Shown here in pieces: positions 15,100 to 37,373 of a DNA stretch of 64,000 bases; position 1 is the stretch's first letter, and the number at the start of each line of letters is the position of its first letter. The notes beneath the pieces were generated by a model. That model was not told the DNA's origin, did no database searches, and worked only from the letters and a program-made list of their open reading frames with translations. A program made the translations under genes and the position numbers. This DNA comes from Prostheceraeus crozeri (Eukaryota > Platyhelminthes > Polycladida > Euryleptidae). The stretch is from positions 62,001 through 126,000 of the forward strand of contig CAJQUW010003440.1 of assembly GCA_907163375.1 (NCBI GenBank), read 5' to 3'.

Positions 15100-15390
15100 A
15101 GTAGTAAGTAAAACTCCACTTCTGGATAGCGCAAGATGGCCGCCGTCGCTGACGTCCCCCCCCTCTGGACCGGCAGAGTGTCGTGGTCGGCCGCCGTGGT
15201 GCTTCGGGTCTGACGTCCCCCCCCTCTGGCCGACCGTCGTATAGCGCGCGGTGATGTGGTGTCTAGGTTGGCGTGGTGTGCCGGCCAGGTTGGCGTGGTG
15301 TGCCGGCCAGGTTGGGAGGGTGGACTGTCGTAGCTCACCTGAAAAAATCCTAAGTGTCAGAGTGGATTTGTATGGGTAAAATTTTGAAAA
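15100..15390 (+). repeat. Polinton 1 left terminal inverted repeat
   Basis: Matches the complement of about 37760-38050. It includes two G/C-tract blocks (TCTGGCC/TCTGGACC with runs of C) and three near-identical GGCCGGCACACCACGCCAAC units. Open frames here are mirrored at the other end and are not genes. Confidence 0.85.
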
Positions 15391-16330
15391 TTTTCCAAAG
15401 TGTGGAATTTCGACCTGGGACCGTCACCAAAACATTTTTCATCAAATTTCACTGACCTCCCCCCCCCCGCCCGACAGCAATCTTCTAACTTTGGTTCTAG
15501 TGAACGGATTTTGTTCCTTTGAGTTGCATTCGAAAGAGGAGAAAAAACTGCTCGACGACATTTTTTGTTGCGAGTCAATCGGACCAGCCGTTCAAAAGTT
15601 AGAGCGGTTACAAGATTTTAGGTCGGAGCTCGCTCACCTGAAAAAATCCTAAGTGTCAGAGTGACTTTGTATGGGTAAAATTTTGAAAATTTTCCAAAGT
15701 GTGGAATTTCGACCTGGGACCGTCACCAAAACATTTTTCATCAAATTTCACTGACCCCCCCACGACAGCAATCTTCTAACTTTGGTTCTAGTGAACGGAT
15801 TTTGTTCGTTCGAGTTGCATTCGAAAGAGGAGAAAAACTGCTCGACGACATTTTTTGTTGCGAGTCAATCGGAACCGCCGTTCAAAAGTTAGAGCGGTTA
15901 CAAGATTTTAGGTCGGAGCTCGCTCACCTGAAAAAATCCTAAGTGTCAGAGTGGCTTTGTATGGGTAAAATTTTGAAAATTTTCCAAAGTGTGGAATTTC
16001 GACCTGGGACCGTCACCAAAACATTTTTCATCAAATTTCACTGACCTCCCCCCCCCTCTGGACAGCTAGCTTCGATCTTGGCTTCTAGTGGACGGATTTT
16101 GTCGTGCTATAGCTCGTTTGAAAGCTAAGAGTGAGACAAATTCAGTGAAAGAAACGGCTTGTTCATATCTGTCTTCGTTCAAAAGTTAGAGCGGTTACAA
16201 GATTTTAGGTCGGAGCTCGCTCACCTGAAAAAATCCTGTGTCAGAGTGGCTTTGTATGGGTAAAATTTTGAAAATTTTCCAAAGTGTGGAATTTCGACCT
16301 GGGACCTTCAACAAAACATTTTTCATCAAA
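15335..16330. repeat. Subterminal tandem repeats, ~295-bp unit
   Basis: Three near-complete and one partial copy start at about 15335, 15630, 15925 and 16220. Each opens with CTCACCTGAAAAAATCCT and contains GGAATTTCGACCTGGGACC and a poly-C tract. The third copy carries a diverged middle. The last partial copy is followed at 16360-16480 by an inverted copy, giving a hairpin around the G-tract at 16340-16360. Confidence 0.85.
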
Positions 16331-16645
16331 TTTCTCTGAACGAGGGGGGGGAGGGGGGGCCAGTGAAATTTGATGAAAAATGTTTTGGTAAAGGTCCCAG
16401 GTCGAAATTCGGAAGTTTTAAATTTTTCAAAATTTTCACCACACTGGAGCTCTCACACTTAGGAATTTTTTCACTTGTGGCATGTTACATGGACATGTGC
16501 TGACGGACCAACTTCCCGTGGTCATATGAGAATGGTTCAGGTGTCATATGATAGAGAATGATGAGACGAATCGTTTGCAACAAACCGCATGTCCCTACAA
16601 TGAATACTTTCGGAGATAGAGCCATTTTAAGTTTTCTTCCGAGCA

Positions 16646-16653
16646 TATATAAA
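16646..16653 (+). promoter_or_regulatory. TATA box of left-end gene 1
   Basis: TATATAAA in a GC-poor context. About 25-30 nt downstream lies a TCACTTC initiator-like sequence, and a donor-like GAG|GTAAGC is at 16693. Confidence 0.55.
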
Positions 16654-17274
16654 CCCCCTACAACGTAAGTCTGATCACTTCATCGAAAGACGAGGTAAGC
16701 GACGGTCGTCGCTCTGAGCTCCCGATATCGGGTGTTTCAAAGGGCTCTATCTTTTGAAGTAGGCAAGCTATCTTCTTACTTCAAAGTTTGTATGATAGAG
16801 TTTGATAGTGTTTTTACTACTGATAAAATTTTTTAAAAGTAGTATGAGTAGTAAAATGCGGAATTTTTTAAAAGTTCTTAATTTTTAGTTTTTTCAAAGT
16901 TTTAACATATAGACTAAGGTTTTCAAGTATCCTGAGTTCAAATCTGCTATCAGATTTGAAATTTGACTAAGTCTAAGGCAGCTTTGAGGGGTTAGATCCC
17001 AGCTACTGATCACTACCTTTGACTCGGCGTTCCTGTTACCACTTCGGGGCAGTGACAATGATGTCTTCAGCTGTAAAGAGCGGGTATCGGGGAAGATCTC
17101 TCACTTCCCTAGTGATCAGTACAAGGCCTTCGGGCTGTCGACGGGATCGAGTGCCACTCACTACACTCAAATCTATCATTCCTGACTAAGTGTAATACTT
17201 TAGGAATATGACTGTACTACATGATTCCAAACTTATACAAATTTCATTATCTTACAGTTAACAATAAATCAGGC

Positions 17275-18453
17275 ATGGCAAACGATAAGAATCGTAAATT
17301 TCACATCAAAATGTGCTCATGTGGGCGAATTAATCGCAGTGCGGACGCCAAGGCGCATGTGAAGAAGGCGGGCACCGGCCACATGATTATCTTGAATAGG
17401 GTTGCGTGTGTGAAGTGCAGAGGGCTGAAGGGTGATGAGGATGAGGCGCGTTTTTACAGAGTGCATGCTGACTGTAGTGGTGGTTTAGTGACTGATTTGA
17501 GATTTACGCAGTTGATTGTGGAAGAGAGGGAGCGAATGTTGGCGATCGAGCGAGAGGGTAAGGCTGAGAATGTTGTTGAGAATGTTGTTGAGAATGATGA
17601 GTTGGCGAGAGCGGTTGCGTCGTTGGAGGGTGAGATTGAGCGAAAGAGAGTGCTTGAGAGTGATGATGAGGATGATGTGGATTTAGATAGGGAGCGTGTG
17701 AGGAAGCGTGTGAGGAAGTTGAGCTCTTCGTCGTCGGAGGTGTCAAACATTGTCATCACCGACCCCCCGAAGAGCTCATCTTCCCCAAAAGTGAAGAGTG
17801 GTGGGATTCGTGTGCAGTCGGCGAGGTGGTTGAAGGATGAAGAGAAGAGGCATGTTTCGCAGCAGATGGCGCATGATTCGTTGGTTAATAAGTATGAGAG
17901 TTTGAAGAAAGTGAAGGATGAAGTTGTGAAGGAGTTGGATGAGTTGAAAAAGAAGGAACTGAAGTCGAAGGAGGTAGCGGATGAAAATATTAGAATGAGG
18001 CGTAGTGTGACTGATTTGAAGAAAAAGACGCGAGAGTTGGAAGAGAAGAATGATGAGTGTGAGAAGAGGGCGAGTGCTGCGGAGAGAAGAATGAGAGATG
18101 CAGAAGCGAAGTTTGAGGAGATGATGAAGGAGATGAGTGTGTTGAGAGCGAGGAATGTTGAGTTGGAGAGGACTGTGGCTCGGCGGGGTGATGAGAGGCA
18201 GGCGTATGAGAAGTTGGAGCGCATGAGGGATGAGTGGGAACGTGTGAATGAGGATCGTTTGTTTGAGTTTCACATCCCTATTCGGGATAATCATTTGGCC
18301 GGCGAAGTATTAGTAAATCAAAGCCTCGACGAAAGTATAATATGCTATAACGGCCATCCAACGAAAAAATGTTTGTATGCCAGCCTACGAATGCGCGGTC
18401 ACTTGCACAAATTCTCGATTCGGAAGCGCGCGAGACTGCCAAAGGATGGCTAA
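17275..18453 (+). CDS. Left-end gene 1: Cys/His-rich plus long coiled-coil protein
   Basis: I do not recognise the family. The frame is open upstream to 17221, but a good acceptor (TTATCTTACAG, ending 17257) suggests the mRNA is spliced just before the ATG at 17275, giving 392 residues. The N-terminus has Cys/His pairs (CSCG, then CVKC, then H-x-x-C) that could form a zinc ribbon. An acidic/Ser-rich linker follows, then about 150 residues of charged heptad-like coiled coil. Codons in the coiled coil are strikingly G/A-rich; the last 60 codons look different in composition and may be a separate addition. A 3'UTR intron (18458-18518) and a histone-type stem-loop follow the stop. Confidence 0.65.
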   Translation: MANDKNRKFHIKMCSCGRINRSADAKAHVKKAGTGHMIILNRVACVKCRGLKGDEDEARFYRVHADCSGGLVTDLRFTQLIVEERERMLAIEREGKAENVVENVVENDELARAVASLEGEIERKRVLESDDEDDVDLDRERVRKRVRKLSSSSSEVSNIVITDPPKSSSSPKVKSGGIRVQSARWLKDEEKRHVSQQMAHDSLVNKYESLKKVKDEVVKELDELKKKELKSKEVADENIRMRRSVTDLKKKTRELEEKNDECEKRASAAERRMRDAEAKFEEMMKEMSVLRARNVELERTVARRGDERQAYEKLERMRDEWERVNEDRLFEFHIPIRDNHLAGEVLVNQSLDESIICYNGHPTKKCLYASLRMRGHLHKFSIRKRARLPKDG

Positions 18454-18457
18454 CTTG

Positions 18458-18518
18458 GTAAGTGAAAAAGTAAATAAAATAGTATATCCTATTCTAATAC
18501 ATATCATTTTCATTGCAG
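18458..18518 (+). other. Probable 61-nt intron after gene 1 stop
   Basis: Donor GTAAGT at 18458 and acceptor TTTTCATTGCAG ending 18518, with short-intron spacing similar to the polB introns. It lies 4 nt after the stop codon, so the stem-loop would be about 57 nt from the stop in the mature RNA. Confidence 0.55.
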
Positions 18519-18552
18519 ATCTTTGCCCGCCTTCACCACCCCATCACGACAC

Positions 18553-18700
18553 TCCCGAGAACGAACCATCGGCTCTCTTAAGGGCCACCTAGGGGCAAGA
18601 CATGATAGAACCTCCACGCGGTTTGCCCTGGGCAGTCTTCGGACTGGCGAATACTATCATTAAGTTGAATCTGCTATCAGTCAACTTGAACGTTGCGTCG
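18553..18700 (+). repeat. ~145-bp 3'-end module, copy 1 of 3
   Basis: The same module, from CCCGAGAACGAACCATC to about CAGTCAACTTGAACGTTG, recurs at about 19030-19170 and 19552-19695, each time directly after a gene. It contains the stem-loop and over 100 bp of conserved downstream DNA. Confidence 0.85.
18571..18586 (+). terminator. Histone-mRNA-type 3' stem-loop, copy 1
   Basis: GGCTCTCTTAAGGGCC fits the metazoan histone 3' stem-loop consensus GGYYYUHHUHARRRCC at every position: six base pairs (one G-U) and a four-base loop. ACC follows, as in histone mRNAs, then a purine-rich GGGGCAAGACATGATAGAA resembling a U7 snRNA target. Confidence 0.6.
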
Positions 18701-18750
18701 CGTTAGAGGGGTACATAAACCACTGCATCTCATTTCATTTCATTTCAATC

Positions 18751-19017
18751 ATGCAGACGCCGAACAGTCAAGTCAGCTCTCCTCGCGGACCGCAGTTAAG
18801 GCCGCGAAATTTATTTGAGGAGTTTGCCAGGCTAGAGGAGCAAGACAGAGTTTTTAATAATCTTGCTCGGATTGGCAATCCGATGACAGCAACTGCTGTC
18901 AATCCAACGGAATGGCGCTACATTCCACTTTTTAGTCACGTGCCAATTAGCGTGGAAGTCGACAGTGCTACCAAAGAGAGAGTCAAAGACTCTCTCAGCA
19001 GAATTGGTAGGGTGTAA
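18751..19017 (+). CDS. Left-end gene 2: small hypothetical protein
   Basis: 88 residues, unrecognised. The ATG follows a CATTTCATTTCATTTCAATC leader. The frame ends 29 nt before a perfect copy of the histone-type stem-loop, the usual spacing for histone mRNAs. Composition is normal, with no membrane segment and no Cys/His motif. Its place between two copies of the repeated 3' module supports a real, separately expressed gene, probably made by duplication of a promoter-plus-3'-end cassette. Confidence 0.55.
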   Translation: MQTPNSQVSSPRGPQLRPRNLFEEFARLEEQDRVFNNLARIGNPMTATAVNPTEWRYIPLFSHVPISVEVDSATKERVKDSLSRIGRV

Positions 19018-19046
19018 GATGACGTTACTCCCGAGAATGAACCATC

Positions 19047-19062
19047 GGCTCTCTTAAGGGCC
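19047..19062 (+). terminator. Histone-mRNA-type 3' stem-loop, copy 2
   Basis: GGCTCTCTTAAGGGCC, identical to copy 1, followed by ACCA and GGGGCAAGACATGATAGAA. It starts 30 nt after the stop of gene 2. Confidence 0.6.
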
Positions 19063-19235
19063 ACCATGGGGCAAGACATGATAGAACCTCCACGCGGTTT
19101 GCCCTGGGCAGTCTTCGGACTGGCGAATACTATCATTAAGTTGAATCTGCTATCAGTCAACTTAAACATTATGCAGTCGATTGCTATCCCTGAAGCATTC
19201 TGATTCGCTGTTGAGCAATTCATTGTTGAAAACCC

Positions 19236-19243
19236 TATATAAG
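19236..19243 (+). promoter_or_regulatory. TATA box of left-end gene 3
   Basis: TATATAAG, with an initiator-like TTCTCATTC about 25-30 nt downstream and the ATG of gene 3 at 19284. Confidence 0.6.
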
Positions 19244-19283
19244 CCAGAAGATTGTAGCGCTTCTCATTCAATTTGAAGTCACA

Positions 19284-19538
19284 ATGGAAGCGACATCTGC
19301 CGACAACATCCCCGTCTTCATCGATGAAGACAACGCCATTCCCGAGTTCGTCATCCTCGACGAGTGGGATGAAGAGGATGAGAAGAAGGGGAAGATCAAG
19401 AGGATCGTTTGGACGGATGAGGTATGGACTCCAAATACCACTCGCATCCGAAAGGTGCCAGATGCACCAGTACGACCTCGGCGGTATAGGGTCTATGACA
19501 ACCTAACCGTCATACCCATTGACTATTCCAGCCAATAG
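19284..19538 (+). CDS. Left-end gene 3: small acidic/basic hypothetical protein
   Basis: 84 residues, unrecognised. An acidic first half (DEWDEEDEKKGK) leads into a basic, proline-containing second half. It has its own TATA box, and a stem-loop copy 32 nt after the stop. As for genes 1 and 2, nothing indicates the biochemical role. The extreme left position, opposite in direction to the virion genes, suggests an early or accessory function. Confidence 0.55.
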   Translation: MEATSADNIPVFIDEDNAIPEFVILDEWDEEDEKKGKIKRIVWTDEVWTPNTTRIRKVPDAPVRPRRYRVYDNLTVIPIDYSSQ

Positions 19539-19569
19539 TCAAATTCACACCCCCCGAGAACGAACCATC

Positions 19570-19585
19570 GGCTATCTTAAGGGCC
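19570..19585 (+). terminator. Histone-mRNA-type 3' stem-loop, copy 3 (one mismatch)
   Basis: GGCTATCTTAAGGGCC: one stem position is changed (A instead of a pyrimidine), which breaks one pair. ACCA and the purine-rich downstream region are conserved. Confidence 0.5.
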
Positions 19586-19699
19586 ACCATGGGGCAAGAC
19601 ATGATAGAACCTCCTCGCGGTTTGCCCTGGGCAGTCTTCGGACTGGCGAATACTATCATTAAGTTGAATCTGCTATCAGTCAACTTGAACGTTGCAAAT

Positions 19700-20029
19700 G
19701 AAGTTCGGTGTAATACTTCCTTTCGACGGGCGTTCCTGTAAAGGGCGGCGGTGAAACCCGTAGCTATGTATACCGCAAGGGACATTCGGCAATGGTCAAT
19801 CTTGTTTAACCTCTCTGCGTCATGTTTGCAAGTGATTGCCTCTGTCTCAACGTAGTATGCATTCGCGCCAGGGCGACATTTAGCCAACTGTCGAAGGTTG
19901 CCTAAAACTTTCCATTGCATACGTTATGAGAACCATGAGTTCTACCTGTCTCTATCAATGAGACGAATTGATGAATGGAATGAAATGGGAGGACACTCAC
20001 GCGCCACACGCAACATAACACACTTCTCT
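19700..20029. other. Noncoding stretch
   Basis: No gene supported. It leads into the 211-bp tandem repeats. Confidence 0.5.
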
Positions 20030-20655
20030 CTTCCGTAGTCTAACAAGCTCTTTACACATGGATCGCAGTCGATTGCTATCCCTGTATCAGAAGTGTAAGC
20101 TATCTTAATTTTATTTGACACTATTTCATCTATCATCATCATCGTCCATATGAAATGTTTTAAGATTTACAAGTTAGACTAAGCGTGCTACTATTTCCAA
20201 ATGAAAAAGTATACATGGTTAAATCATCCACTTAAGCCCATCCGTAGTCTAACAGGCTCTTTACACATGGATCGCAGTCGATTGCTATCCCTGTATCAGA
20301 AGTGTAAGCTATCTTAATTTTATTTGACACTATTTCATCTACCATCATCATCGTCCATATGAAATGTTTTAAGATTTACAAGTTAGACTAAGCGTGCTAC
20401 TATTTCCAAATGAAAATGTATACATGGTTAAATCATCCACTTAAGCCCATCCGTAGTCTAACAAGCTCTTTACACATGGATCACAGTCGATTGCTATCCC
20501 TGTATCAGAAGTGTAAGCTATCTTAATTTTATTTGACACTATTTCATCTACCATCATCGTCCATATAAAATGTTTTAAGATTTACAAGTTAGACTAAGCG
20601 TGCTACTATTTCCAAATGAAAATGTATACATGGTTAAATCATCCACTGAAGCCCC
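20030..20655. repeat. Three tandem copies of a ~211-bp unit
   Basis: Each copy contains CGATTGCTATCCCTGTATCA and ATGTTTTAAGATTTACAAG; the copies differ by a few bases and a small deletion in the third. A short shared block (CAGTCGATTGCTATCCCTG) also occurs upstream of left-end gene 3 (about 19173-19192), so the unit may hold a regulatory or origin-type sequence. Confidence 0.85.
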
Positions 20656-20704
20656 ATTCAAGTAAGTCAGTATGAAAGCAAAGATAATGCGAAATAAAAA
20701 TTTA

Positions 20705-21100
20705 TTATGGCATGTATTTCAAAAGGTCTTCATCGTCAATATCGTCCCAGAGTCTGGCTTCACATAGATAACAAAAACAGTTCAGTTGCTTTAATCGTTC
20801 TTCCACTGCGAGCCTCACTTTGTCAATATACTCCCACTCCTCCATAGTTCGTGGCTGGGAGTTAGGGGTGTACCACTCCCATAATTGGTGGAGGAATTTC
20901 GTGCTGGTGATCTCCATCACATCGTCAGTATCGTACTGGAGATACTTCCACCTCACGCCTGTTACGTCGGGACACTCCTTCTCACATACACTCTCTTCGT
21001 TGTCCGCTGGTAATAACACCTTCTCTACCTTCGTTGGAGCGTTTGGTGTTGAGGATGGAGAAGAGAATTTTGTGTTTGGTGTTGTCGGAGGGCTTGTCAT
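20705..21100 (-). CDS. Hypothetical 131-residue protein divergent from polB
   Basis: Unrecognised. The N-terminus is Pro/Ser/Thr-rich and the middle Glu/Trp-rich (LWEWYTP). A CFCYLC motif near the C-terminus could bind metal with an upstream Cys pair (residues about 39-43). It is transcribed away from polB, sharing a roughly 280-bp intergenic region with two CCAAT-type sequences (around 21157 and 21173). The polyadenylation signal AATAAA overlaps its stop. Confidence 0.55.
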   Translation of the reverse strand: MTSPPTTPNTKFSSPSSTPNAPTKVEKVLLPADNEESVCEKECPDVTGVRWKYLQYDTDDVMEITSTKFLHQLWEWYTPNSQPRTMEEWEYIDKVRLAVEERLKQLNCFCYLCEARLWDDIDDEDLLKYMP

Positions 21101-21197
21101 GTTGACTGTGAATAATGACTTTGAAATGTTTTCTAATTCTTAAGTATCAACAAGCAACCAATCAGAATGAACAGCCAATGAATGATGAATATGAAAG

Positions 21198-21209
21198 TAT
21201 ATATGTAAA
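21198..21209 (+). promoter_or_regulatory. TATA box of polB transcript
   Basis: TATATATGTAAA, with an initiator-like TCATTTCACTC about 25 nt downstream. CCAAT sequences lie about 30-45 bp upstream. Confidence 0.5.
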
Positions 21210-21377
21210 GTGACATTCGTGTCATTTCACTCTGTCTTTGAGACGCATAAGTGAACTGTTGTCTAGCGAATTCTGTTATTATTTGAGGCGTACAAGTGAA
21301 TTCCAAATTTGAGACGTATTATTTGAGTGAAGTCTCTATCTTGTTGAAGTATCAAGCTTAAACATAATTTCGTTGAA

Positions 21378-24300
21378 ATGGTAAGTTGAAAATTTCTTCA
21401 CTCATCTCCCTCAAACGTGTGGCTAATAGCATCTTCCTCAATTTCAGGCATCAACTTCATCACCAACACCCTCCCTTCTCGAGGAAAGTTTAGAGTTGTT
21501 GAGTCAAGGTAGGTTGTAACAATACACTGAGACTTGAACAGAGATGAAAGAATGATTTCTCTTTCAGGTGATGTGAGTTCCAGCTCAGGACTCTCGCGAC
21601 AAGGCGACGAGTGGGAATGTGCCGACTGCGGACATATGTTTACAAGGAAGCACAGTCTCCTTCGACACATCAAACAACGTGTGTGTCAACGCAAAGCGGC
21701 GTCAATCTCCGGAGGTGAAGTTGATTCTGACGATGACATCTCCTTTCCTTGCGATTTGTGCCGTCTTTCTTTTGATAGTCACTTTCAGCGATCTTCGCAC
21801 AGACTTCAACACACGCATGCAAATGATCACTACACCAACGGTACCTCTACCATCTCCCTCATTAATGTTTCACATAATAATTTAGTACGCGACTACTGCA
21901 TGGAGTCCAATACTCAAATAGTAGATTTTCCTGAGTGGCTCCTTCAAAATTCAAACATTATCGAAGCGCTCTTCAACAATTTAGACAATTTTAGAATGAA
22001 GGCGCTCATCTACCTTAAACTAAAATATATTAAGATAGATTTTCAAACGGGTCAATTGACGGAGAGAATACAGTTTCATGTTCCTTCCTCTTCCGCAACC
22101 GAAGTTGTAGACTGCGAGTCTTGGCTAAATTTTCACATTCAATGTTTAAAATCAAATGTAGATAAATTCAATCAACGCGACAGCGCTCTCATTTTTGATG
22201 CTGTGGACTCAGCCATATTCAAAATTTCACTATTAGAAAGTCATGCAGCTCGAGGTACATTTAAACTACCAAAAACGTTGTATAATAAGAAAGCTGTCAT
22301 CAATGTCGATTGTAAATCACAGTGTTTCAAATATGCAGTCCTATCCATCCTTCACTATAATGATATCAACGCGCATCGAGATCGCACCTATAGCTATAGA
22401 CAGTGGGAGGATGAACTAGACTTTGAAGGTTGTGATAGTAACAACATGAAAATCAAAGATGTAGAAACGTTCGAAAAACATAATAAGATTAAAATTGTCG
22501 TTCACGTGTGGGAGAAGGGGTTGAAGGGTGCCCGCTATAATTCACGTTCAACTTGTTATGAACGTGTAGTCAACCTCTTATTAGTAAAACAAGATGATAG
22601 CGAGGAATGGCACTAGTGTGGTATTCCCAAAATCTCTCGCTTGTACACTCACTTGGGGCACTCTAAAAGAGGTGAACATTTTGTATGCGACCGCTGCATC
22701 CGCTCCATTTGGAGTAAAGATAAATTTGAAACTCACTATGAATGGTGCAAGCGAGGTAAATTACAAATGGAACGCATGCCCAAAGATAAAATATTTTCAC
22801 ATAGGGATAATGGTGACGAATTAAGTCCCCTGCGTGTCATTTACGCAGACATAGAATGCTACATTGATGATATCATCCACAAGCCAGCAGCCATATCCTG
22901 CTATGAAGTATGGCATGACCACTTTAGGAATAGACAAAACAAAATGTATACTTGGCAAGGTGAAGATTGCATTTCAAAATTTCTAGAATTTCTTGATAAA
23001 GCTGCTAAATTTCAACAATCATATGATTCCCAATTGCAGCGTAAGTCACTACATATGTCAGATGAAGACAAACAAAAATTTGAAAGTTGCACATCCTGTC
23101 CTAAATGTCATAAAACGTTTGATGACGATAAAATTAAGAAAGTGCGTGATCATGATCACATCACTGGTAAATTTAGAAACGCACTCTGCTCCAAATGTAA
23201 CTTTTCACTTAGGTTGAGACGTCGTGTACTACCCGTCATTTTTCATAACTTTAAGGGCTATGACAGTCATATGCTCATAAAAGGAGGGTTGAGCCAGATG
23301 AAATCGTGGCAGTTTAATGTAATAGCACAAACGAGAGAAAAATTCATGGCAATGACAGCAAAAGTACCAGTAGATAAAACTAAAGAAAATAAGACAGTCT
23401 TCTTCGAAATAAAATTTTTAGATTCATTTCAATTCATGTCAGCGTCACTAGCTTCTCTCGTTCGAAATCTCAAGTTTCTTCCCCATAGTCAAACTTTGAA
23501 GAAACACTATCCAAACTTAACGGATGAAATAATCACTCGCAAAGGAGTCTTTCCTTATGCGTATTTTAGCTCAATGTCTAAACTAAATTAAACAACCCTT
23601 CCTTCCATTGACAAATTCAAAAACGATTTGACGGGTGAAGATTGTCCAGTAGAGGACAATGAACATGCTCAAGAGGCATGGTCAAAATTTGAATGTAAAA
23701 CGTTTGGCGATTATATGATCGCTTACTTAGAATTAGATGTCATTTTCCTGGCTGATGTCTTTCAGGAATCTCGACGAGTGGCATTAGAAGAAGACAAATT
23801 AGATCCTGTCCACTTTGTCAGTCTACCAGCCATGTCCTTTAAATCAGCCTTTAAAATGACTGGTGAGACCATTCATCTCTTACAAGACCCGGAGATGTAT
23901 AATATATTTGAGCGCGGAATACGCGGTGGTCTCACATTTGTAAATAAACATCATATAAAATCTGAAACAGTAGGTGATGATCATATCCACCTAAAGTACT
24001 ATGACCAAAATAATTTATATGGCAGTTCACTGTCTAAACCACTACCTCATTCCGAGTTTAGTTGGCTAAATCAAGATGAGCTTGAGTATTACTCCAACCC
24101 TTCAAACATACTGAAGATTCCAGATGAAGGTGATTGGGGATATTATTTTGAAGTGGATTTGATTTATCCAAATAGCATTAAAAATAAAACTGCTGATTTC
24201 CCACTCGCACCTGAATCTGGTGAAGTGACTGAAGATATGTTTTCACCATTCATGTCACAATTTCATAATAACTTAACAGAGTGTGGACAGCCAAGGTACA

Positions 24301-25352
24301 AACCATGCCGCAAACTTTTAATCACCCAATATGATAAGAAAAATTATCTCGTACACTTCTGCATACTAAAATTCTATTTAGAAATGGGCATGCTTCTAAA
24401 GTCAGTTCACCGCATTATCAAATTTAGACAGAAAGCCTTCCTCAAACCCTACATAGATAGTAACAGTCAAAAACGTGCACTCGCCCAAAATAATTTTGAA
24501 AAGGATTTTTATAAATATAATAATAACAGTCTTTTCGGAAAGACCATGGAGGATGTTAGAAAACGTATGAACTACAAACTAGTCGTTGATGAACAAAAAT
24601 ATCACAAATTGACCTCATCACCTCTTTTCATTGATAGAGACATCATCGATGAGGATCTTGTAGGTGTTAAAATGATAAAATCAGAAGTTGAGTTGTGCAA
24701 ACCCATCTATATTGGGCAAGCCGTTTTAGATTATTCCAAGCTTGAAATGTATCAACTCTTCTACAAAATATTAAAACCATGCCCTCTCGTAAAAGAGGTT
24801 CACTTGCTGGGTGGTGATACAGATAGTTTCTTTTTAGGAATTACCACTCAAAAAGATTTAAATTTTAATGAAGTAGGCAAGTCATTAGAAAAATATTTCG
24901 ACACATCTAACTACAATCCCACTCATCCACTCTATTCCATACAGAATAAAGCCAAACTTGGTTGTTTTAAGGATGAAACAGCAGGAAAGGAAATAGATGA
25001 AATGATTATCCTCCGTCCTAAAATGTATTCCATGAAATTAAAAGAATGTGCAGATAGTATTAAGCGTGCTAAAGGTATATCAAAATCCATTGTTCACAAA
25101 ATGAAACATCGGTCCTATAAGAAGGCCTATAAAAATAAAACTATAACGTTTGTCAATATGACAACCTTAAAATCTCAAGTTCATACTGTGAAAACGTACA
25201 CGTTCAAGAAACGAGCACTTTCAGCATGGGAGGATAAGAGGTGTTGGATAGGACATAACACATCTCTTCCACATGGACATCCTGACACAAACATACCACC
25301 ACCCAAAAGAATAAAACTCACGCTACCACATTCAGGAGATGTATTGACATAA
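21378..25352 (+). CDS. DNA polymerase B (Polinton 1), spliced, two premature stops
   Basis: Protein-primed-type family B polymerase that would copy the element. Proposed exons are 21378-21380 (the ATG alone), 21448-21508 and 21567-25352; introns are 67 and 58 nt with consensus GTAAGT/GTAGGT donors and TTTCAG acceptors. The join is in frame. N-terminal C2H2-type fingers (CADCGHMF, CDLCRLSF) come first, and a third near 22690. The exonuclease motifs are YADIECY (~22842), FHNFKGYDSH (~23241) and YLELDVIFLAD (~23725). The polymerase motifs are YYDQNNLYG (~23998), NNSLFGK (~24523) and GGDTDS (~24812). In-frame TAG (22614-22616) and TAA (23589-23591) interrupt it without any frame change. All catalytic residues are intact. 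Either a recent nonsense-damaged copy or dependent on readthrough. Confidence 0.88.
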
Positions 25353-25502
25353 TCAACTTTAACTCAGTATTTTGATGTTGCTTTTTGTAGATATACATGG
25401 TTGTTTTATGTATCGCATGAGATCGTTTCTTCCTTGTGAATATATGCCTACAGTTAGCTCATTCCCCCTATATCTGTGAAAAGACTTTTTCATATACATA
25501 TT

Positions 25503-25516
25503 TTTATTTCAATAAA
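25503..25516. terminator. Back-to-back polyadenylation signals
   Basis: AATAAA on the plus strand (25511-25516) serves polB. AATAAA on the minus strand (complement of 25503-25508) serves the converging minor capsid gene. Confidence 0.65.
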
Positions 25517-25531
25517 CATATCACAATGACT

Positions 25532-27052
25532 TCACTTTGTTTTCCGAAACACTAAAGTTACTAGGGATTCAGAATCTTTCACATGGATGCACTCTTGTAA
25601 ACCATTGGTAATTTTGATAGCAATAGAGGGTATAGTTTGTTTGACGACGGGATGATAGAAAATAGATTCAAACATCTTCTCGACTATTCCATATGAAGCG
25701 TCTTTATCATGAATGAAATCACGTAAAATGTATTCTTTTTTCTCACCAACAGAAATAGGTAGAATCAAATCACTTTGAATGTAAAGGTGCTGTTCATGTT
25801 TATCAAGTGTCATTGGTGTTTCTATACCAATCGTATGCGCAGCAGCAAACACTGTTTGTAGCATTGAAAAACCAAAGAGTTTTTTCAAATTTTTACTCAA
25901 TTGACATTGAATGTCATCACCCAGTTTCAGAACAACGCGTTGATTTTCAATTGAAAACGAAATGTGGTGTGTCTTTACATCATATTTACTTTTCATCACA
26001 TGCTTCAACTTCTGTTGTATATAAGGATTTACTACATGAATGAAGCTTTCAACTGTATGATATAAACGCGGCATTATATTGATAGCAACTTTAGATTCTT
26101 CATAAGACTGGTAAATTTTCTTGATGCGATCGCCATAGATGTCCACCCACCATTCATCATTAACTGAATCAGCTTTAGTGTGATATTCATGAGAAGCATA
26201 CACCACACCGCTTCCAATAATAGGTGTATGATGTCTTACAAAATGACGAAAGGTTGGAGAGAAATAAACTGTAAGTTTGTCATTATATTTCTGAATAACC
26301 AACTTATTTTTGTTCGCCATAATTTTCTCTCCATACTTCTTACCCACAGTCTCATTCCATCGTTTTACTAACTCAATAAGTGATAAAGGTTGAACACCAC
26401 GCTTTTTCAAAATGATGCGTTCTTTGCATTCTACAACATCTTCATCAAATATTTTAAATCTATAATGAAATTTGTTGATTCGATTTGAATAAACTTTTTT
26501 AACATTTGCAGTAGCAATTGATGTTAGATGTAGTCCATGACCAAAACCAAGATGTGGATAGAATTCATTATCCAACCTCAGCGTAAGACCTTTAGTAAAA
26601 GAATGAAAGCGGAGGAACTGTCTCCCACTCCAATGATAGATAGTAAACTCATAAGCTTTCTGATTTTTATTCTTCATGATGGAAGTATTACCACTGTTGA
26701 ATGCCTTAATAATTTTCTCATTCCCAAATGGTTCATAAGAATCTGATTTTATCTGAATCCATTCATAGTTCCACTTTCCATCTGATGTTAAATTGTATGG
26801 GAACTGAAATGTATTATTCATCGTTATTCCATCATGGGTGCGAGGAGTCAATATCATTTCTTCCAAATCATTCACATTCTGAATATTGCTATCATAGCAA
26901 ATACTAGAAACGCCAACCTCCCATTCACCTTCTAAATGCAGTGGCCGATTTAATTCTACTCGATAGTCTGATGGTTTATTTTTGGGAAATTTATTCATAG
27001 AAGCATTACTGGGCAAGTAGATTAGAAACGAGTCCTTATTTTCACTTTCCAT
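25532..27052 (-). CDS. Minor capsid-like protein, paralogue A
   Basis: About 506 residues from the ATG at 27052; the frame is open to an ATG at 27082. The N-terminus matches a pattern I associate with invertebrate Polinton proteins: FLIYLPSNASM, then LEGEWEVGVSSICY. The C-terminal third contains KLFGF, YIQSDLI, and a terminal block with paired beta-strand-like segments. The same C-terminal pattern is present in the next gene and in the 267-residue protein of Polinton 2, which I take to be the minor capsid/penton family of Polintons. The role is inferred from these patterns and from gene order among virion genes. The frame is intact. Confidence 0.55.
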   Translation of the reverse strand: MESENKDSFLIYLPSNASMNKFPKNKPSDYRVELNRPLHLEGEWEVGVSSICYDSNIQNVNDLEEMILTPRTHDGITMNNTFQFPYNLTSDGKWNYEWIQIKSDSYEPFGNEKIIKAFNSGNTSIMKNKNQKAYEFTIYHWSGRQFLRFHSFTKGLTLRLDNEFYPHLGFGHGLHLTSIATANVKKVYSNRINKFHYRFKIFDEDVVECKERIILKKRGVQPLSLIELVKRWNETVGKKYGEKIMANKNKLVIQKYNDKLTVYFSPTFRHFVRHHTPIIGSGVVYASHEYHTKADSVNDEWWVDIYGDRIKKIYQSYEESKVAINIMPRLYHTVESFIHVVNPYIQQKLKHVMKSKYDVKTHHISFSIENQRVVLKLGDDIQCQLSKNLKKLFGFSMLQTVFAAAHTIGIETPMTLDKHEQHLYIQSDLILPISVGEKKEYILRDFIHDKDASYGIVEKMFESIFYHPVVKQTIPSIAIKITNGLQECIHVKDSESLVTLVFRKTK

Positions 27053-27091
27053 ATTATTCACATTGGAAAAATATATTAGCATACTTTTGCA

Positions 27092-28489
27092 TTAACTCTT
27101 CATTCGGAAATGGAGTGTGATACTTGTCACAGCATCTTTATGAAAAGGAATCAACGCACCAGCATCGTCATAAATGGCAATATCAATTTGTGGGATGTAG
27201 TTTGATTTCAGCTTTGTATAATGCACTTTCTTGAAAGTATGCTCAGATAAAATACTGCAGCTTTTTGGCTGGTATGGTATCATTGCTAGCAATGGAGCTT
27301 CAACATCTCCCACACGTACATCTTCACCAATATTGGAATATATCTGAAAATAGTTAATACGACGCGATAGCGACATGTCTGCGCTAGCTTTGGTTACAGT
27401 ACCACTTTTAAAGATATTTTGATCAAAACCCAAAATGTCCATTAGAGTTTTATCCATAATTAGTTCAATACCTTTTCCACTTATAGTGAGAGACAAAGTA
27501 CCTTCTTTTTCAGAAAATGAAATATGTTGGTCATTAATCACTTCATTTAAATAATCTACAACCAATTTAACCGAAGTAATAATGCGAGGCATCAACACTC
27601 TTGTTTCATGTAAGATACCACCAAAAGGCTCTACACACTTTCTGTATAAAGATACGGACCATTCTGTATCAAATTGATTTGACCTTTCACATGGTAAATG
27701 TTGCATATCAAATTTTCCATGAACAGCTGCAGAACGATGTCGTAAGAACTGATGAAAATCTTTTGAACAAACTAATACTAGATCATCATCATTTAATTTG
27801 CTTATTGCAATATGATTAGATGATTTAATATAAGTCAATGTTGCCACTTGTTTACCATCAACTCGAAGGAGATAATTAAATTTCTTCAATAATGTTTCAG
27901 GAGTCATGTTTGTCTTTCTTGGCTTAATCACAATCTTCTTCACCAACGTCTTCTCATTTCTTGGAATAAGATCTACATAATACGCTTCCTCTCGATATAT
28001 TAACTGTTTATGACCACTTATGTGGTAATTAACGTTAAAATTATCATAGCTTGTTAAGGCGCTAGCGAGGTATCCTAAATCATTTCTTAAACTTGGACTT
28101 AAACCAACAATCCAATCTTTCTCAACTACATGATGTACATAGGTATAATCATCATTGTGCGGAGTAAATTGGGCAATATGTTTACACGCTTTATTCAAGA
28201 AATCATATATAAACTTTTTACATGTTAAGAGATCTTTCTTTGGCCACTGTGGAATGTATACTCGGCACCCCTTTTCACATTGGTAAGCAGCTGTACGTCT
28301 CATATTAATAGTCATCACCTCATGATCAAAAGTATAGACACAGTTGCTATAAACAAGTTGAGTGACACCTGCTTCCCAATTTCCATTTAGCTGTTGTGCA
28401 TGATCAATGGGAGTAGAAAAGAGTGCGGCTCGATTACTAGTAAATCTCTTTGTAGCCGCATTGCTAAGCAAAATATGATAAAACGACAT
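27092..28489 (-). CDS. Minor capsid-like protein, paralogue B
   Basis: 465 residues from the ATG at 28489 (FYHILLSNAATKRF, then LNGNWEAGVTQLVY). It is colinear with paralogue A at low identity: the same N-terminal SNA motif, the same length class and the same DILGF and terminal strand block. The two are adjacent on one strand with about 40 bp between them. An octamer-like ATGCAAAG (complement of 28511-28518) lies 22 nt upstream of the start. The divergent gene at 28525 starts only about 35 bp away, so the promoters overlap. Confidence 0.55.
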   Translation of the reverse strand: MSFYHILLSNAATKRFTSNRAALFSTPIDHAQQLNGNWEAGVTQLVYSNCVYTFDHEVMTINMRRTAAYQCEKGCRVYIPQWPKKDLLTCKKFIYDFLNKACKHIAQFTPHNDDYTYVHHVVEKDWIVGLSPSLRNDLGYLASALTSYDNFNVNYHISGHKQLIYREEAYYVDLIPRNEKTLVKKIVIKPRKTNMTPETLLKKFNYLLRVDGKQVATLTYIKSSNHIAISKLNDDDLVLVCSKDFHQFLRHRSAAVHGKFDMQHLPCERSNQFDTEWSVSLYRKCVEPFGGILHETRVLMPRIITSVKLVVDYLNEVINDQHISFSEKEGTLSLTISGKGIELIMDKTLMDILGFDQNIFKSGTVTKASADMSLSRRINYFQIYSNIGEDVRVGDVEAPLLAMIPYQPKSCSILSEHTFKKVHYTKLKSNYIPQIDIAIYDDAGALIPFHKDAVTSITLHFRMKS

Positions 28490-28510
28490 TTTTATATTGC
28501 TGATCTGCAA

Positions 28511-28518
28511 CTTTGCAT
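28511..28518 (-). promoter_or_regulatory. Octamer-like ATGCAAAG motif
   Basis: One of five ATGCAAA sequences placed just upstream of late-type genes on this strand (others at 27085-27092, 32022-32029, 34508-34515, 34913-34920). Confidence 0.35.
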
Positions 28519-28524
28519 AACATC

Positions 28525-28881
28525 ATGAAGACTTGGATTTTGGACTCTCTACAATATATCAGAGTTGATCGTGATGGAAACGTACATTTCAAAAATTCTC
28601 ATGGTCATACATCAAGAGGAATTACATTAACATGGCGACAATTTGTCAACCTCAATGATATCATGAGGGATTTGGAATATTTTGAAACATTAAGATTCAT
28701 CTCCTTGGATGATCAAGTTTGGCTTCAACATTACAGAAATGAAATTCAAATCTACCATTCTCATTCCGCAAACTGTTTCTCATTTCGCAAATACAATTGG
28801 GAGAAGTATAGAAGATACATACATCGCTCCATCATGACATTTATTCGTCGTGAGTTCATCGCCCTACTATGCAAATCTTAA
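28525..28881 (+). CDS. Small PC4-like (?) protein, paralogue 1
   Basis: 118 residues. Beta-strand-like segments (DGNVHFKN, RGITLTWRQF) are followed by a helix, a second strand pair (VWLQHYRNEIQIYH) and a helix. The order strand-strand-GITLT-x-x-Q-helix recalls the PC4/Sub1 transcription coactivator and ssDNA-binding fold, but similarity is weak and I would not name it without structure prediction. The next gene is a clear paralogue. Both precede the TBP-like gene on the same strand. Confidence 0.5.
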   Translation: MKTWILDSLQYIRVDRDGNVHFKNSHGHTSRGITLTWRQFVNLNDIMRDLEYFETLRFISLDDQVWLQHYRNEIQIYHSHSANCFSFRKYNWEKYRRYIHRSIMTFIRREFIALLCKS

Positions 28882-28903
28882 TCAGACATGACTACCACAC
28901 ATC

Positions 28904-29554
28904 ATGAGTTGGAAATTAGATTCCTTACAACGTATTGAAACGGATCATGATCGAAACGTCTATTTCAAAGATTCAACTGGAAATGTGAGAAGAGAGTTTG
29001 CTTTATCTTATCGTCATTTTCAATCTCTACATCATATCATGAAGGACTTGAAATACTTCTATATGAAAAGACATTCACGTATTGGAAATCGCATCTGGCT
29101 GCGCGTCAACAATCGGCGAATTCAGCTCTATCATTCCCAACTTCATACTAACTTCACATTTCATCAAGGTAGTTGGGAAAAGTATAAAAGGAAGGTACAT
29201 CGCTCAATTTACTCATTCTTTCATCATGAAGCGCCATCGCTACACCATCGTCAACATTCTCCGTCGCTTCAGACTCTACACCAAAATCGATCTCACAACA
29301 TTACACCAACACCTTCCAAACAGCAAGTATTATCCGGGCCGACCTCACATGTTAGTGGTGAAGATGAACAATTCACGGAATCTTCAACTCTTCCCAAATG
29401 GGACTGTACAGATTCTCGGCGCCCTTTCTCATTCATCGGCGCAGTCAATGCGCTTAGAGCTACAAAGACTACTACGTCGGATATGGAAGAGGGAGAGGTG
29501 TGTGATGTCGAATCTGACTGTGGACAATATGGTGATCTCTACTCAATTGAGTGA
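28904..29554 (+). CDS. Small PC4-like (?) protein, paralogue 2, with overlapping tail
   Basis: The first ~108 residues (from MSWKLDSLQ) align with the preceding gene: LDSLQ.I....GNV.FK at the start, WEKY....HRSI at the end. The frame continues to 216 residues with a low-complexity His/Ser/Pro-rich tail, and that tail overlaps the TBP-like gene in another frame from 29226. The tail composition is probably dictated by the overlapped gene, so the functional domain may be only the first half. Confidence 0.5.
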   Translation: MSWKLDSLQRIETDHDRNVYFKDSTGNVRREFALSYRHFQSLHHIMKDLKYFYMKRHSRIGNRIWLRVNNRRIQLYHSQLHTNFTFHQGSWEKYKRKVHRSIYSFFHHEAPSLHHRQHSPSLQTLHQNRSHNITPTPSKQQVLSGPTSHVSGEDEQFTESSTLPKWDCTDSRRPFSFIGAVNALRATKTTTSDMEEGEVCDVESDCGQYGDLYSIE

Positions 29555-29771
29555 AAGTGTATCATTTTTGAAGATTCGTACCAGCAGTTACAATTTGTGT
29601 TATGAACCCGAACTTTTTCCTGCAGCTCTCATTAGTTGTTGGTTACCTGTGCATGTGGCAATCTTTCATAATAGTAAAGTGATCATTACTGGACTAAAAT
29701 CTCATGTACAAGCAAATGTGATCCTAGACTATCTCATTGAGTATGTACGTACCCAGCGGATTGTAAAATAA
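29226..29771 (+). CDS. TATA-binding-protein-like protein
   Basis: 181 residues from the ATG at 29226, which is the size of a TBP core. There are two tandem repeats, about residues 7-85 and 96-176. Repeat 2 contains YEPELFPAALI and then FHNSKVIITG, almost the conserved eukaryotic TBP pattern (YEPELFPGLI, then F-x-S-G-K-V-V-x-T-G). Repeat 1 has the matching KIDLTTL, YYPGR and LFPNGTVQILGA blocks. Three of the four phenylalanines that TBP inserts into the minor groove are kept (LQLF, ELFP, VAIF); the first is replaced (GRPH). It overlaps the preceding frame. It is presumed to bind TATA elements in the nucleus, either for the element's own promoters or to redirect host initiation. AATAAA (29767-29772) overlaps the stop. 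Confidence 0.85.
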   Translation: MKRHRYTIVNILRRFRLYTKIDLTTLHQHLPNSKYYPGRPHMLVVKMNNSRNLQLFPNGTVQILGALSHSSAQSMRLELQRLLRRIWKRERCVMSNLTVDNMVISTQLSESVSFLKIRTSSYNLCYEPELFPAALISCWLPVHVAIFHNSKVIITGLKSHVQANVILDYLIEYVRTQRIVK

Positions 29772-29802
29772 AAAACAATTTTTCCAACATGATGTTTTTA
29801 TT
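29767..29802. terminator. Converging polyadenylation signals
   Basis: AATAAA (plus, 29767-29772) for the TBP-like gene, and AATAAA (minus, complement of 29797-29802) for the protease end of the capsid cluster. Confidence 0.65.
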
Positions 29803-30259
29803 TCAAATCATGATAGAACTTACAAATCATTTTTTCATTAGAGGATGGATTACATGAAAAGTTTTGAATAATAGATGCAAATCGAGATACATGTAAACGT
29901 TTTAAGATGAAGTACAGTACAAAAGCACCACACGTTGATGAAAGTGGATGTTGTAGTATGCGTTCATTTCGCTGATATTGACGCGTATGTTTTCTCAACC
30001 ACTTCTGTGTTGGTATATTTGGAGGTTGAGCAAGAGAGTCAAATAGTTCACCACGTCGGTCTTCTCCAATAAAGATCGCTTTCCAATGCTCACCGCCTAA
30101 ATTCTGCGAATGAGTGTTTAGCACAATAAAGATGGGATAGTGATTTACTGCAGGTGGTAAGGTATCGAGTGAATAGACATTATCGAAAGATTTCAACGTC
30201 GCTTCGTCTGCATTACGCTGCACTTTAGTCTTAATATCGTCAGCAGTCAACCAACTCAT
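29798..30259 (-). CDS. Adenain-like cysteine protease
   Basis: 153 residues. Catalytic pattern of the adenovirus-type (C5) protease: His58 in GGEHWKAIF, Asp74 in ELFDSL, Gln103 in ILQHP and Cys110 in SSTCGAFVLYF. In this family the enzyme cleaves capsid and core precursors during virion maturation. Its ATG overlaps the capsid gene stop by one base (TAATG), as in compact viral gene clusters. The frame is intact. Confidence 0.9.
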   Translation of the reverse strand: MSWLTADDIKTKVQRNADEATLKSFDNVYSLDTLPPAVNHYPIFIVLNTHSQNLGGEHWKAIFIGEDRRGELFDSLAQPPNIPTQKWLRKHTRQYQRNERILQHPLSSTCGAFVLYFILKRLHVSRFASIIQNFSCNPSSNEKMICKFYHDLK

Positions 30260-31533: not shown

Positions 31534-31535
31534 GA

Positions 31536-31991
31536 TTAGAAGTTATAGCAGCGTCGTCGTTTAGCGCCTGATGAATGATTAGAGCCTCTACGACGTTTGC
31601 GTGAATGCCTTTTGACTGAAGATCGCACCTTACCAGCTCCGCGATGTTTCCTCCTTCCTTTATTCATTCGTTTAGGTGATTTCTTTCCTTGAGTAACACC
31701 AGCAATGGTCTGCTTCAATGTTTTTAAACCGCGTTCCTTCCCACGATTCAACAAACTGCTCTTAAAACTTCTACCTCTGGAAAGATCACTAGCAACATCA
31801 CCAGCAAAGCCAACGGCATTACTTAAAACATTTCGTTTTAAAGATCTACCGACATTGGATATGAGAGGTGCTACAACAGATTTCAGTGCACCAAGTATGC
31901 TACCTCCACGTTGGCGGCGAGCGCCGATGTAAATTTGTCCTCCACCACTTACGTAGGAGGGTCGTGAATAAAATGAGGCAGTTGGATTCAT
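31536..31991 (-). CDS. Basic core/minor virion protein (pVI/pX-like)
   Basis: 151 residues, strongly basic at the C-terminus (K/R-rich stretches, RKRRR). The N-terminal part has a GGSILGALKSVV amphipathic segment, like adenovirus-type core/cement proteins found beside Polinton capsid genes. It probably condenses DNA or lines the capsid and is a likely protease substrate. The octamer-like motif (32022-32029) lies 31 nt upstream of the ATG. It forms a tight cluster with the capsid and protease genes. Confidence 0.7.
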   Translation of the reverse strand: MNPTASFYSRPSYVSGGGQIYIGARRQRGGSILGALKSVVAPLISNVGRSLKRNVLSNAVGFAGDVASDLSRGRSFKSSLLNRGKERGLKTLKQTIAGVTQGKKSPKRMNKGRRKHRGAGKVRSSVKRHSRKRRRGSNHSSGAKRRRCYNF

Positions 31992-32021
31992 AGCTCAAAC
32001 CCTAAACATTGTTAGTTACAA

Positions 32022-32029
32022 CTTTGCAT
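32022..32029 (-). promoter_or_regulatory. Octamer-like ATGCAAAG motif
   Basis: Complement of CTTTGCAT, 31 nt upstream of the core-protein start, in the same position relative to the start as at four other late-type genes. Confidence 0.35.
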
Positions 32030-32032
32030 GAA

Positions 32033-33121: not shown

Positions 33122-33190
33122 CTTTTTGTTTTCTTACCTTTCTACATTTACAACAACTACAGCATTTAGCTTTAGCACATCTGCTTCATA

Positions 33191-33883: not shown

Positions 33884-33928
33884 AGTTTGTAGATAATCAT
33901 GGGAGTTTTCAAAATATCACTTCCAAAT

Positions 33929-34486: not shown

Positions 34487-34507
34487 TTTATTACTTTGAG
34501 ATTCAAC

Positions 34508-34515
34508 ATTTGCAT
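34508..34515 (-). promoter_or_regulatory. Octamer ATGCAAAT motif
   Basis: Perfect POU-type octamer on the minus strand, 22 nt upstream of the ATPase ATG. Confidence 0.35.
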
Positions 34516-34517
34516 AA

Positions 34518-34874: not shown

Positions 34875-34912
34875 TTTCCGTGTTAGTCTTTGCTAAAACC
34901 TATCTTTACCAC

Positions 34913-34920
34913 ATTTGCAT
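34913..34920 (-). promoter_or_regulatory. Octamer ATGCAAAT motif
   Basis: Perfect octamer on the minus strand upstream of the core pX-like gene. Confidence 0.35.
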
Positions 34921-34925
34921 AGGTA

Positions 34926-35243: not shown

Positions 35244-35245
35244 TT

Positions 35246-36289: not shown

Positions 36290-36323
36290 CTAAAACGGAA
36301 ATTTACACATCTAAGGAAACGTT

Positions 36324-37369: not shown

Positions 37370-37373
37370 GAAA

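Follow-up and report, generated by a model that had tools for sequence, protein, structure and literature searches.

A histone-type stem-loop and a hepatitis delta virus-like ribozyme fold as a candidate mRNA 3' end of Polinton genes in the flatworm Prostheceraeus crozeri

The cut of a theta ribozyme makes the 3' end of a tRNA. Theta ribozymes of gut phages are hepatitis delta virus (HDV)-like, their cleavage site lies within 5 nucleotides (nt) of the tRNA, and a C to U change of the catalytic base abolishes activity (accessible text of PMC10879173). In histone pre-mRNA, the U7 small nuclear ribonucleoprotein (snRNP) cuts 4-5 nt after the loop (PMC7026596, in the portion available). The reporter beta-His-delta carries a histone stem-loop before a delta ribozyme, and this stem-loop restored the level of unspliced RNA, as described in the accessible part of PMC4456446. 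Here, we analysed 64,000 nt of the genome of the polyclad flatworm Prostheceraeus crozeri (assembly GCA_907163375.1, contig CAJQUW010003440.1, positions 62,001 to 126,000 of the forward strand), hereafter referred to as the window. It holds a Polinton-type element, Polinton 1, and three genes at the left end of this element, ORF1, ORF2 and ORF3 (ORF, open reading frame), are each followed by a cassette consisting of a histone-type stem-loop, exactly 5 nt of spacer, and an HDV-like fold with helices P1, P2, P3, P1.1 and P4 and a catalytic cytosine. Our best reading, with a probability of roughly 0.8, is that the left-end Polinton genes end in a composite signal that would give them ribozyme-made, non-polyadenylated mRNA ends bound by the stem-loop-binding protein (SLBP).

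The three stem-loops lie where the first-pass annotation of this DNA had placed them, the third with one mismatch (Table 1). The repeat unit is longer than first described. It measures 152 nt, at 18543-18694, 19019-19170 and 19542-19693, and copies 2 and 3 are 95% and 92% identical to copy 1, respectively. Copies 1 and 2 fit the consensus GGYYYUHHUHARRRCC, adopted as given in that annotation, at all positions, and they are the sole two fits on both strands of the 64 kb; dinucleotide shuffles gave 30 fits in 731 windows (0.04 per window). When up to 3 mismatches are allowed, 0.11 stem-loops are expected per window, and none of 100 shuffles reached three. A search of the window with the Rfam model of the histone stem-loop, RF00032, finds copies 1 and 2 on the forward strand, but at scores below the cut-off (34 bits; the cut-offs of the HDV families RF02682 and RF00094 are 44 and 50 bits). 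The distance of 30-60 nt from the stop codon, claimed earlier for all three genes, holds for ORF3 (31 nt) and nearly for ORF2 (29 nt), but not for ORF1, where it is 117 nt, or 56 nt if the putative intron in its 3' untranslated region (UTR) is indeed one.

The HDV-like fold is a nested double pseudoknot, P1-P2-P3-P1.1-P4, and all its helices are perfect in the three window copies. Since the structure lines of RF02682 and RF00094 show no P2 pairs, the full fold was tested with a descriptor of our own, which asks for a 7-bp P1 starting with G, P2, P3, an L3 with CC, P1.1, P4 and the J4/2 cytosine. Over the 64 kb this strict descriptor has three matches on the forward strand, all in the cassettes, and none on the reverse strand, while an equivalent descriptor matched 20 times in 731 dinucleotide-shuffled windows. 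With G in place of the catalytic C, the equivalent descriptor matched the three units with a shift of one base, a result of the two Gs before the catalytic C; with A or T it found no matches. What we claim is a modelled HDV-like fold, not membership of an Rfam family. The purine-rich stretch CAAGACATGATAGAA, which had been proposed as the U7 target, coincides with the 3' part of P1, J1/2 and the 5' strand of P2, and the U7-target reading of it was set aside, the stretch being paired in the ribozyme fold. The predicted ribozyme cut, as a position, falls 5 nt after the stem in all three copies, and on this model the RNA itself is more likely to be the cutter than the U7 snRNP with CPSF73. Behind each ribozyme stands a hairpin tipped with CTG-CTAT-CAG (the second and third at 19138-19163 and 19661-19686), and a further one is found before ORF1 (16926-16960). 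The sequence CTATCA might pair with the P2 strand in competition with P2'.

The same arrangement recurs in a second, diverged Polinton lineage of this genome. An RF00032 search of the 2.05-Gb genome, blind to ribozymes, scored the best 75 of 295,389 candidates and listed 52 matches, all of which were read (30 loci and 22 more). An HDV-like fold of different sequence follows 47 of these 52 listed matches, mostly in the diverged lineage; the fold penalty is 0 in 10, at most 3 in 44 and at most 5 in 47. Nine of the 52 pass the RF00032 cut-off, and seven of those nine are then followed by the ribozyme fold. The five listed matches that lack it are L033, L034, L070 (shortened ribozyme), L080 and L088. 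Among 3000 randomly chosen places in the retrieved loci, 26 had a penalty of at most 5, a control that is not a clean null because these loci themselves hold cassettes. We then combined 60 loci, 30 that had been selected for matching the cassette at 100% and 30 found through RF00032, with the window. In this set the J4/2 base is C in 140 matches versus A in 3, G in 1 and T in 6. A stem-loop with at most one bad pair lies upstream of 133 of the 140 ribozyme matches, and the other seven, some of them chance matches, have none. The consensus is fitted by 123 of the 133 cassettes, and the spacing between stem-loop and ribozyme is 4-5 nt in 124 (5 nt in 102, 4 nt in 22, 2 nt in 5, 6 nt in 2, and 7 and 9 nt in one each).

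The cassettes form three sequence groups, A, B and C. Group B has GGCTCTTTTAAGAGCC in 29/29 copies, 4-nt spacing in 21/29, GGAGCAA/TTGCTCT as its commonest P1 and a P2 that starts with G. Group C has mostly GGTCTTTTTAAAGACC and mostly the P1 GGGGCAA/TTGCCCT, with 5-nt spacing in 17/18. J4/2 reads ACTGAAT in all 47 cassettes of groups B and C, versus GCGAATA in the window lineage. Across 64 distinct cassettes, both sides of a pair have changed at stem-loop pairs 3, 4 and 5, P1 pair 3, P2 pair 1 and P4 pair 4. Between related elements the stem of the stem-loop is thus kept by compensatory changes, a point on which the first-pass annotation had let its proposal depend. In a set of 69 distinct cassettes, 95.4% of pair cells are paired and six pairs are compensatory, while controls in which the 3' partners were slid by 1-3 positions gave 30-46% paired cells and 0-2 compensatory pairs. 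The pairing percentage is partly built in, because the cassettes were found by requiring pairing, and better evidence comes from the compensatory pairs; these count as a handful of events, not 69, because they separate the three sequence groups. These between-group paired changes, which keep RNA pairs, also bear on the idea that the repeat owes its conservation to a protein-coding function or to a role as a DNA site. In group A one sense frame is open through stem-loop and ribozyme in 84/86 copies, as that idea would have it, but the same frame is closed in 18/18 group C and 23/29 group B copies. The coding reading was rejected on this frame test, and a role as coding sequence or DNA site is extremely improbable.

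Among the loci L033-L062, a relative of ORF1 is present in 24/30 (22-36% identity over the matched stretch) and one of ORF2 in 27/30 (46-61%); the ORF3 relatives of the second lineage have 34-57% identity. In the second-lineage element of L063-L064, the relatives of the polymerase, capsid-type, integrase and ATPase-type proteins are 78-89% identical to those of the window. In most second-lineage loci that have an ORF3 relative (e.g. L042, L041, L055), it lies on the strand opposite to ORF2, and the left-end gene block has therefore been rearranged between the lineages.

The stem-loop resembles that of the host's own histone H3 genes. In the histone-family search, the best 150 of 735 candidates were scored, and 125-base 3' flanks were taken from the 20 top H3-type matches. 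Locus L080 has a complete H3 reading frame with the stem-loop GGCCCTCTTAAGGGCC 27 nt after the stop; at 31.1 bits this stem-loop is itself below the RF00032 cut-off. The same GGCCCTCTTAAGGGCC occurs in 3 of the 20 further H3-type flanks, and 17 of the 20 show no stem-loop. All four host H3 stem-loops have the loop CTTA, as in the window, and the comparison with host histone stem-loops that had been proposed shows that the window stem-loop differs from that of H3 by one base. The 5' flanks of the stem-loops are alike as well, at 13 of 15 positions between the host (GTGAACGCCGCAAAC, L096) and the second lineage (GAGAACGCCCCAAAC). This likeness suggests that stem-loop and 5' flank were captured from a host histone gene; shared processing needs could be an alternative source of it. 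Two matches to SLBP_RNA_bind lie on one host contig and cover positions 1-37 and 34-69 of 70 in an exon-like manner. As a separate observation, the H3 3' UTR is retained in several copies of L093-L112 until just before the loop (e.g. ...GTGAACGCCGC), where similarity ends, as though their template had been an mRNA truncated at the loop.

A plain histone-type 3' end, cut by the host U7 snRNP and CPSF73 with no action of a ribozyme, would agree with the fit of the stem-loop to the consensus and to the host H3 loop, with the SLBP-type sequence of the host, and with locus L088 (G000:C13281:363500-364900). This locus has a small open frame, beside a relative of the window ORF 35246-35656, that terminates in GGCCCTCTTAAGGGCC, the very stem-loop of host H3; its flank is CCAAAA, and no ribozyme follows. 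However, in 47 of the 52 listed matches the place of the histone downstream element is taken by P1-J1/2-P2 of an HDV-like fold, and P1, P2 and P4 show compensatory changes between lineages, so that we judge this explanation very unlikely for the cassettes. At L088, which lacks the ribozyme, U7 processing may therefore apply. It may be that the stem-loop is what stays constant, and that cleavage behind it can be achieved in two ways, of which the ribozyme is one. L088 and the H3 gene of L080 share the motif ACTGCT, a possible U7 target, at a distance of 12-13 nt behind the loop.

Under the reading that we prefer, RNA polymerase II would transcribe the stop codon, the histone-type stem-loop, the 5 nt and the HDV-like ribozyme. 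The ribozyme would fold and cut just 5' of P1, in copy 1 between 18591 and 18592. The released mRNA would be capped and non-polyadenylated and would end in ...stem-loop-ACCUA or ...stem-loop-ACCAU, an end laid out like that of mature histone mRNA and produced independently of U7 snRNP and CPSF73. Host SLBP would bind and protect this end and aid export and translation, and expression would probably be tied to S phase, the period in which the histone mRNAs of the host are stable; such coupling would be a reasonable consequence of an SLBP-bound end. We take a non-polyadenylated, SLBP-bound end as the best reading because of the histone-type motif, the compensatory changes between lineages, the likeness to host H3 and the SLBP-type sequence in the host. 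Polyadenylation may occur alongside it, since AATAAA is found behind ORF1 and AATAAA or ATTAAA behind second-lineage ORF2 stops. We also favour, with less assurance, a wider proposal. The composite would be a portable, U7-independent histone 3'-end machine, in which an H3 stem-loop resembling that of the host, together with the 5' flank, and a ribozyme making the exact histone end would give SLBP-dependent, poly(A)-free, S-phase-timed mRNAs to two or three left-end genes, and which would have persisted across diverged Polinton lineages.

Within the lineage of Polinton 1 (lineage 1), a cassette search of the same genome (G000) scored the best 40 of 770 candidates, each of which matches at 100% over the 152 nt. 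From this search 30 loci were extracted; they contain 85 cassettes with no more than 18 changes in 90 nt, and 29 of the 30 hold 2-4 cassettes, mostly about 470-530 nt apart, like the window. Variation was counted over 90 positions in 55 cassettes that had not been selected through the query, and amounts to 96 changes, 27 of them in L3, 18 in J1/2 and 18 in P2 (17 at its outermost pair). The mean pairwise divergence of the stem-loops is 0.013 (stem-loop 2) and 0.022 (stem-loop 3). In a protein search, the third cassette was recovered, as antisense frames, in two further contigs (P0121 and P0122). In the stem-loop, both have the residue found in copies 1 and 2, and P0122 differs, by codon reading, at two further places, in L4 and J1.1/4, a sample too small to serve as a test. 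In the viral contig collection, none of five scans gave a relative; two of them returned 2 and 58 pattern-fitting stretches, none of which was confirmed. Two candidates from a pattern scan of the genome contig collection, L001 and L002, were judged to be chance matches after both loci had been read.

Several results weigh against a working composite signal. None of the changes among the 55 lineage-1 cassettes is compensatory: six keep a pair and 31 break one, 17 of these at the outermost P2 pair. The ribozymes diverge as much as the genes before them, with mean pairwise values of 0.038 for ribozyme 2 versus 0.035 for ORF2 and 0.062 for ribozyme 3 versus 0.057 for ORF3, so that in this comparison a bulk slowing of ribozyme change is not seen within the young lineage 1, and support therefore rests on the between-lineage comparison. 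All HDV matches of the window are below the Rfam cut-offs (at best 26.8 of 44 bits for RF02682 and 27.5 of 50 for RF00094). A 28-kb Rfam scan of 13 loci gave no HDV family at E<=1, and a narrow scan of one such locus gave RF02682 at 20.6 bits. Looser descriptors that allow mismatches also match 8 and 2 places of the window outside the cassettes. P1 is perfect in 80/86 group A and 13/18 group C copies but in just 11/29 of group B; we read the imperfect copies as decayed. No cassette was seen after the second-lineage ORF3 relatives found, most of them on the other strand. The first SLBP_RNA_bind match crosses a TGA, L088 does without a ribozyme, and in the accessible text on the beta-His-delta reporter (PMC4456446) the stem-loop did not restore splicing. 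As to polyadenylation, AATAAA occurs 19 nt after the ORF1 stop, within the putative intron, and AATAAA or ATTAAA 122-131 nt after the stop of 10/17 second-lineage ORF2 genes.

These poly(A) signals, the many imperfect P1 helices of group B and the mostly pair-breaking changes of lineage 1 are what one would expect if the composite were a relic or decoy, with the fold kept and the transcripts normally polyadenylated downstream, or with a ribozyme that mainly lowers expression. We consider this unlikely: no AATAAA or ATTAAA lies within 150 nt after the ORF2 and ORF3 stops of the window, nor within 400 nt after the ORF2 stop in any of 20 lineage-1 copies, and the spacing of 4-5 nt to a host-like stem-loop would be left without a reason. 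The earlier statement that the other Polinton 1 genes use AATAAA was too strong, as AATAAA or ATTAAA is found in 7 of 18 other ORFs (-5 to +150 nt around the stop).

The layout of the genes bears on a further explanation, in which the ribozyme mainly frees a downstream 5' end, as in R2, or splits a polycistronic RNA, and the stem-loop just protects the upstream piece. The three genes stand head to tail (17275-19538), a cut also creates a new 5' end, and R2 ribozymes work at 5' ends (PMC3774820, in the part available). However, a TATA-like box at 18712 (ORF2) and a TATA box at 19236 (ORF3) lie between the preceding ribozyme and the ATG, and no forward-strand ORF of at least 60 amino acids (aa) starts between copy 3 and 21552. 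Each left-end gene appears to have its own promoter, and a main role in making 5' ends or splitting a polycistron is improbable.

Table 1 Features of Polinton 1 and of its three cassettes in the window.
Feature	Position	Strand	Remarks
Polinton 1, approximate extent	15100..38050		terminal inverted repeats, rve, Endonuclease_7
ORF1, first cassette-bearing gene	17275..18453	+	392 aa from ATG 17275; 410 aa from 17221
Putative intron, ORF1 3' UTR	18458..18518	+	61 nt, GTAAGT...TTGCAG; predicted from sequence; AATAAA inside at 18473
Histone-type stem-loop 1, GGCTCTCTTAAGGGCC	18571..18586	+	fits consensus; RF00032 18.9 bits
5-nt spacer ACCTA	18587..18591	+	predicted mRNA 3' end after 18591
HDV-like ribozyme fold 1	18592..18660	+	catalytic C 18648; RF02682 26.8, RF00094 24.8 bits
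Fold 1, P1	18592-18598/18623-18629		
Fold 1, P2	18602-18608/18654-18660		
Fold 1, P3	18610-18612/18620-18622		
Fold 1, L3	18613-18619		
Fold 1, P1.1	18630-18631		GG
Fold 1, P4	18633-18637/18642-18646		
Fold 1, J4/2	18647-18653		
Trailing hairpin AAGTTGA...CTGCTATCAG...TCAACTT	18662..18687	+	sequence common to all three copies
ORF2	18751..19017	+	88 aa; matches P0123 99%, P0124 72%
Histone-type stem-loop 2, GGCTCTCTTAAGGGCC	19047..19062	+	fits consensus; RF00032 18.1 bits
5-nt spacer ACCAT	19063..19067	+	predicted mRNA 3' end after 19067
HDV-like ribozyme fold 2	19068..19136	+	catalytic C 19124; RF02682 26.8, RF00094 25.9 bits
ORF3	19284..19538	+	84 aa
Histone-type stem-loop 3, GGCTATCTTAAGGGCC	19570..19585	+	one mismatch, breaks stem pair 5; fails consensus; not listed by RF00032
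5-nt spacer ACCAT	19586..19590	+	predicted mRNA 3' end after 19590
HDV-like ribozyme fold 3	19591..19659	+	catalytic C 19647; L3 TCCTCGC; RF02682 26.5, RF00094 27.5 bits

Polinton 1 was assigned to the Polinton/Maverick elements by its terminal inverted repeats, rve integrase, family-B polymerase and capsid genes. The arms of the inverted repeats are 15100-15163/37987-38050, 15156-15378/37771-37993 and 16048-16209/37545-37706, and the integrase and Endonuclease_7 domains lie at 32408-33121 and 22767-23591; a weak C48 protease match is below cut-off. One protein without a Pfam match we take, by its motifs, to be the polymerase. The capsid label, also without a Pfam match, follows from position and from a 20% match between the double jelly-roll (DJR) protein of a second element, Polinton 2, and a relative of 30259-31533. 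None of ORF1-3 has a histone match in Pfam; ORF2 and ORF3 have no Pfam match of any kind, and ORF1 has just two weak ones below cut-off. Upstream of ORF1, the stretch 16690-17250 folds strongly (minimum free energy -58.5 kcal/mol for 16990-17170) and lies perhaps within a 5' UTR intron; Rfam gives there a single weak match, SNORD45, below cut-off. Polinton 2 (39342-60391) has DJR capsid domain, rve, DNA_pol_B_2 and LAGLIDADG matches, and neither the strict ribozyme descriptor nor the stem-loop consensus finds a cassette in it. A long hairpin at 12196-12322, with 63-nt arms that are 84% complementary, matches miRNA-type Rfam families below cut-off and is probably a palindromic repeat.

If our reading is true, nature has made what experimenters built, an mRNA 3' end composed of a histone stem-loop and a delta-type ribozyme. 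Protein-coding mRNA in an animal-type genome would then process its own end, HDV-like ribozymes would be seen in a new role, and a virus-like element would have a means of tying its own genes to the host S phase. It would also offer a natural test that separates the contributions of the stem-loop and of U7 processing to the behaviour of histone mRNA. In the open-access literature, as far as its text was accessible, we found no report of a histone stem-loop or an HDV-like ribozyme in Polintons, nor of the two together as a natural mRNA 3' end.

Compared with known systems, the element is like other Polinton/Maverick elements in its inverted repeats, rve integrase, Endonuclease_7, and capsid-type and protease-like genes. 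The cassette is like the 3' end of replication-dependent histone mRNA (RF00032; SLBP, U7 snRNP) in its 16-nt consensus, its CUUA loop as in host H3, its place near the stop and its predicted end 4-5 nt after the stem, but the genes are not histone genes and an HDV-like fold replaces the histone downstream element. With HDV-like ribozymes (RF00094, RF02682; R2, L1Tc, CPEB3) it shares the nested double pseudoknot, L3, P1.1, the J4/2 cytosine and the setting in a mobile element. The mobile-element cases described in the accessible literature are retroelements (R2, LINEs, L1Tc), with R2 carrying the ribozyme at its 5' end, whereas here it is found in a DNA element, at gene 3' ends and beside a histone stem-loop. 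As in theta ribozymes, as far as their available description goes, the predicted cut site is within 5 nt of another functional RNA; unlike in theta ribozymes, this neighbour is the histone stem-loop of an mRNA, in a eukaryotic element. The beta-His-delta reporter, in the text available, has the same order of stem-loop and delta-type ribozyme and was built to stabilise a non-polyadenylated 3' end, while the arrangement described here appears to be natural and recurs in many copies. Taken singly, both modules are similar to known kinds; the novelty appears to lie in their combination.

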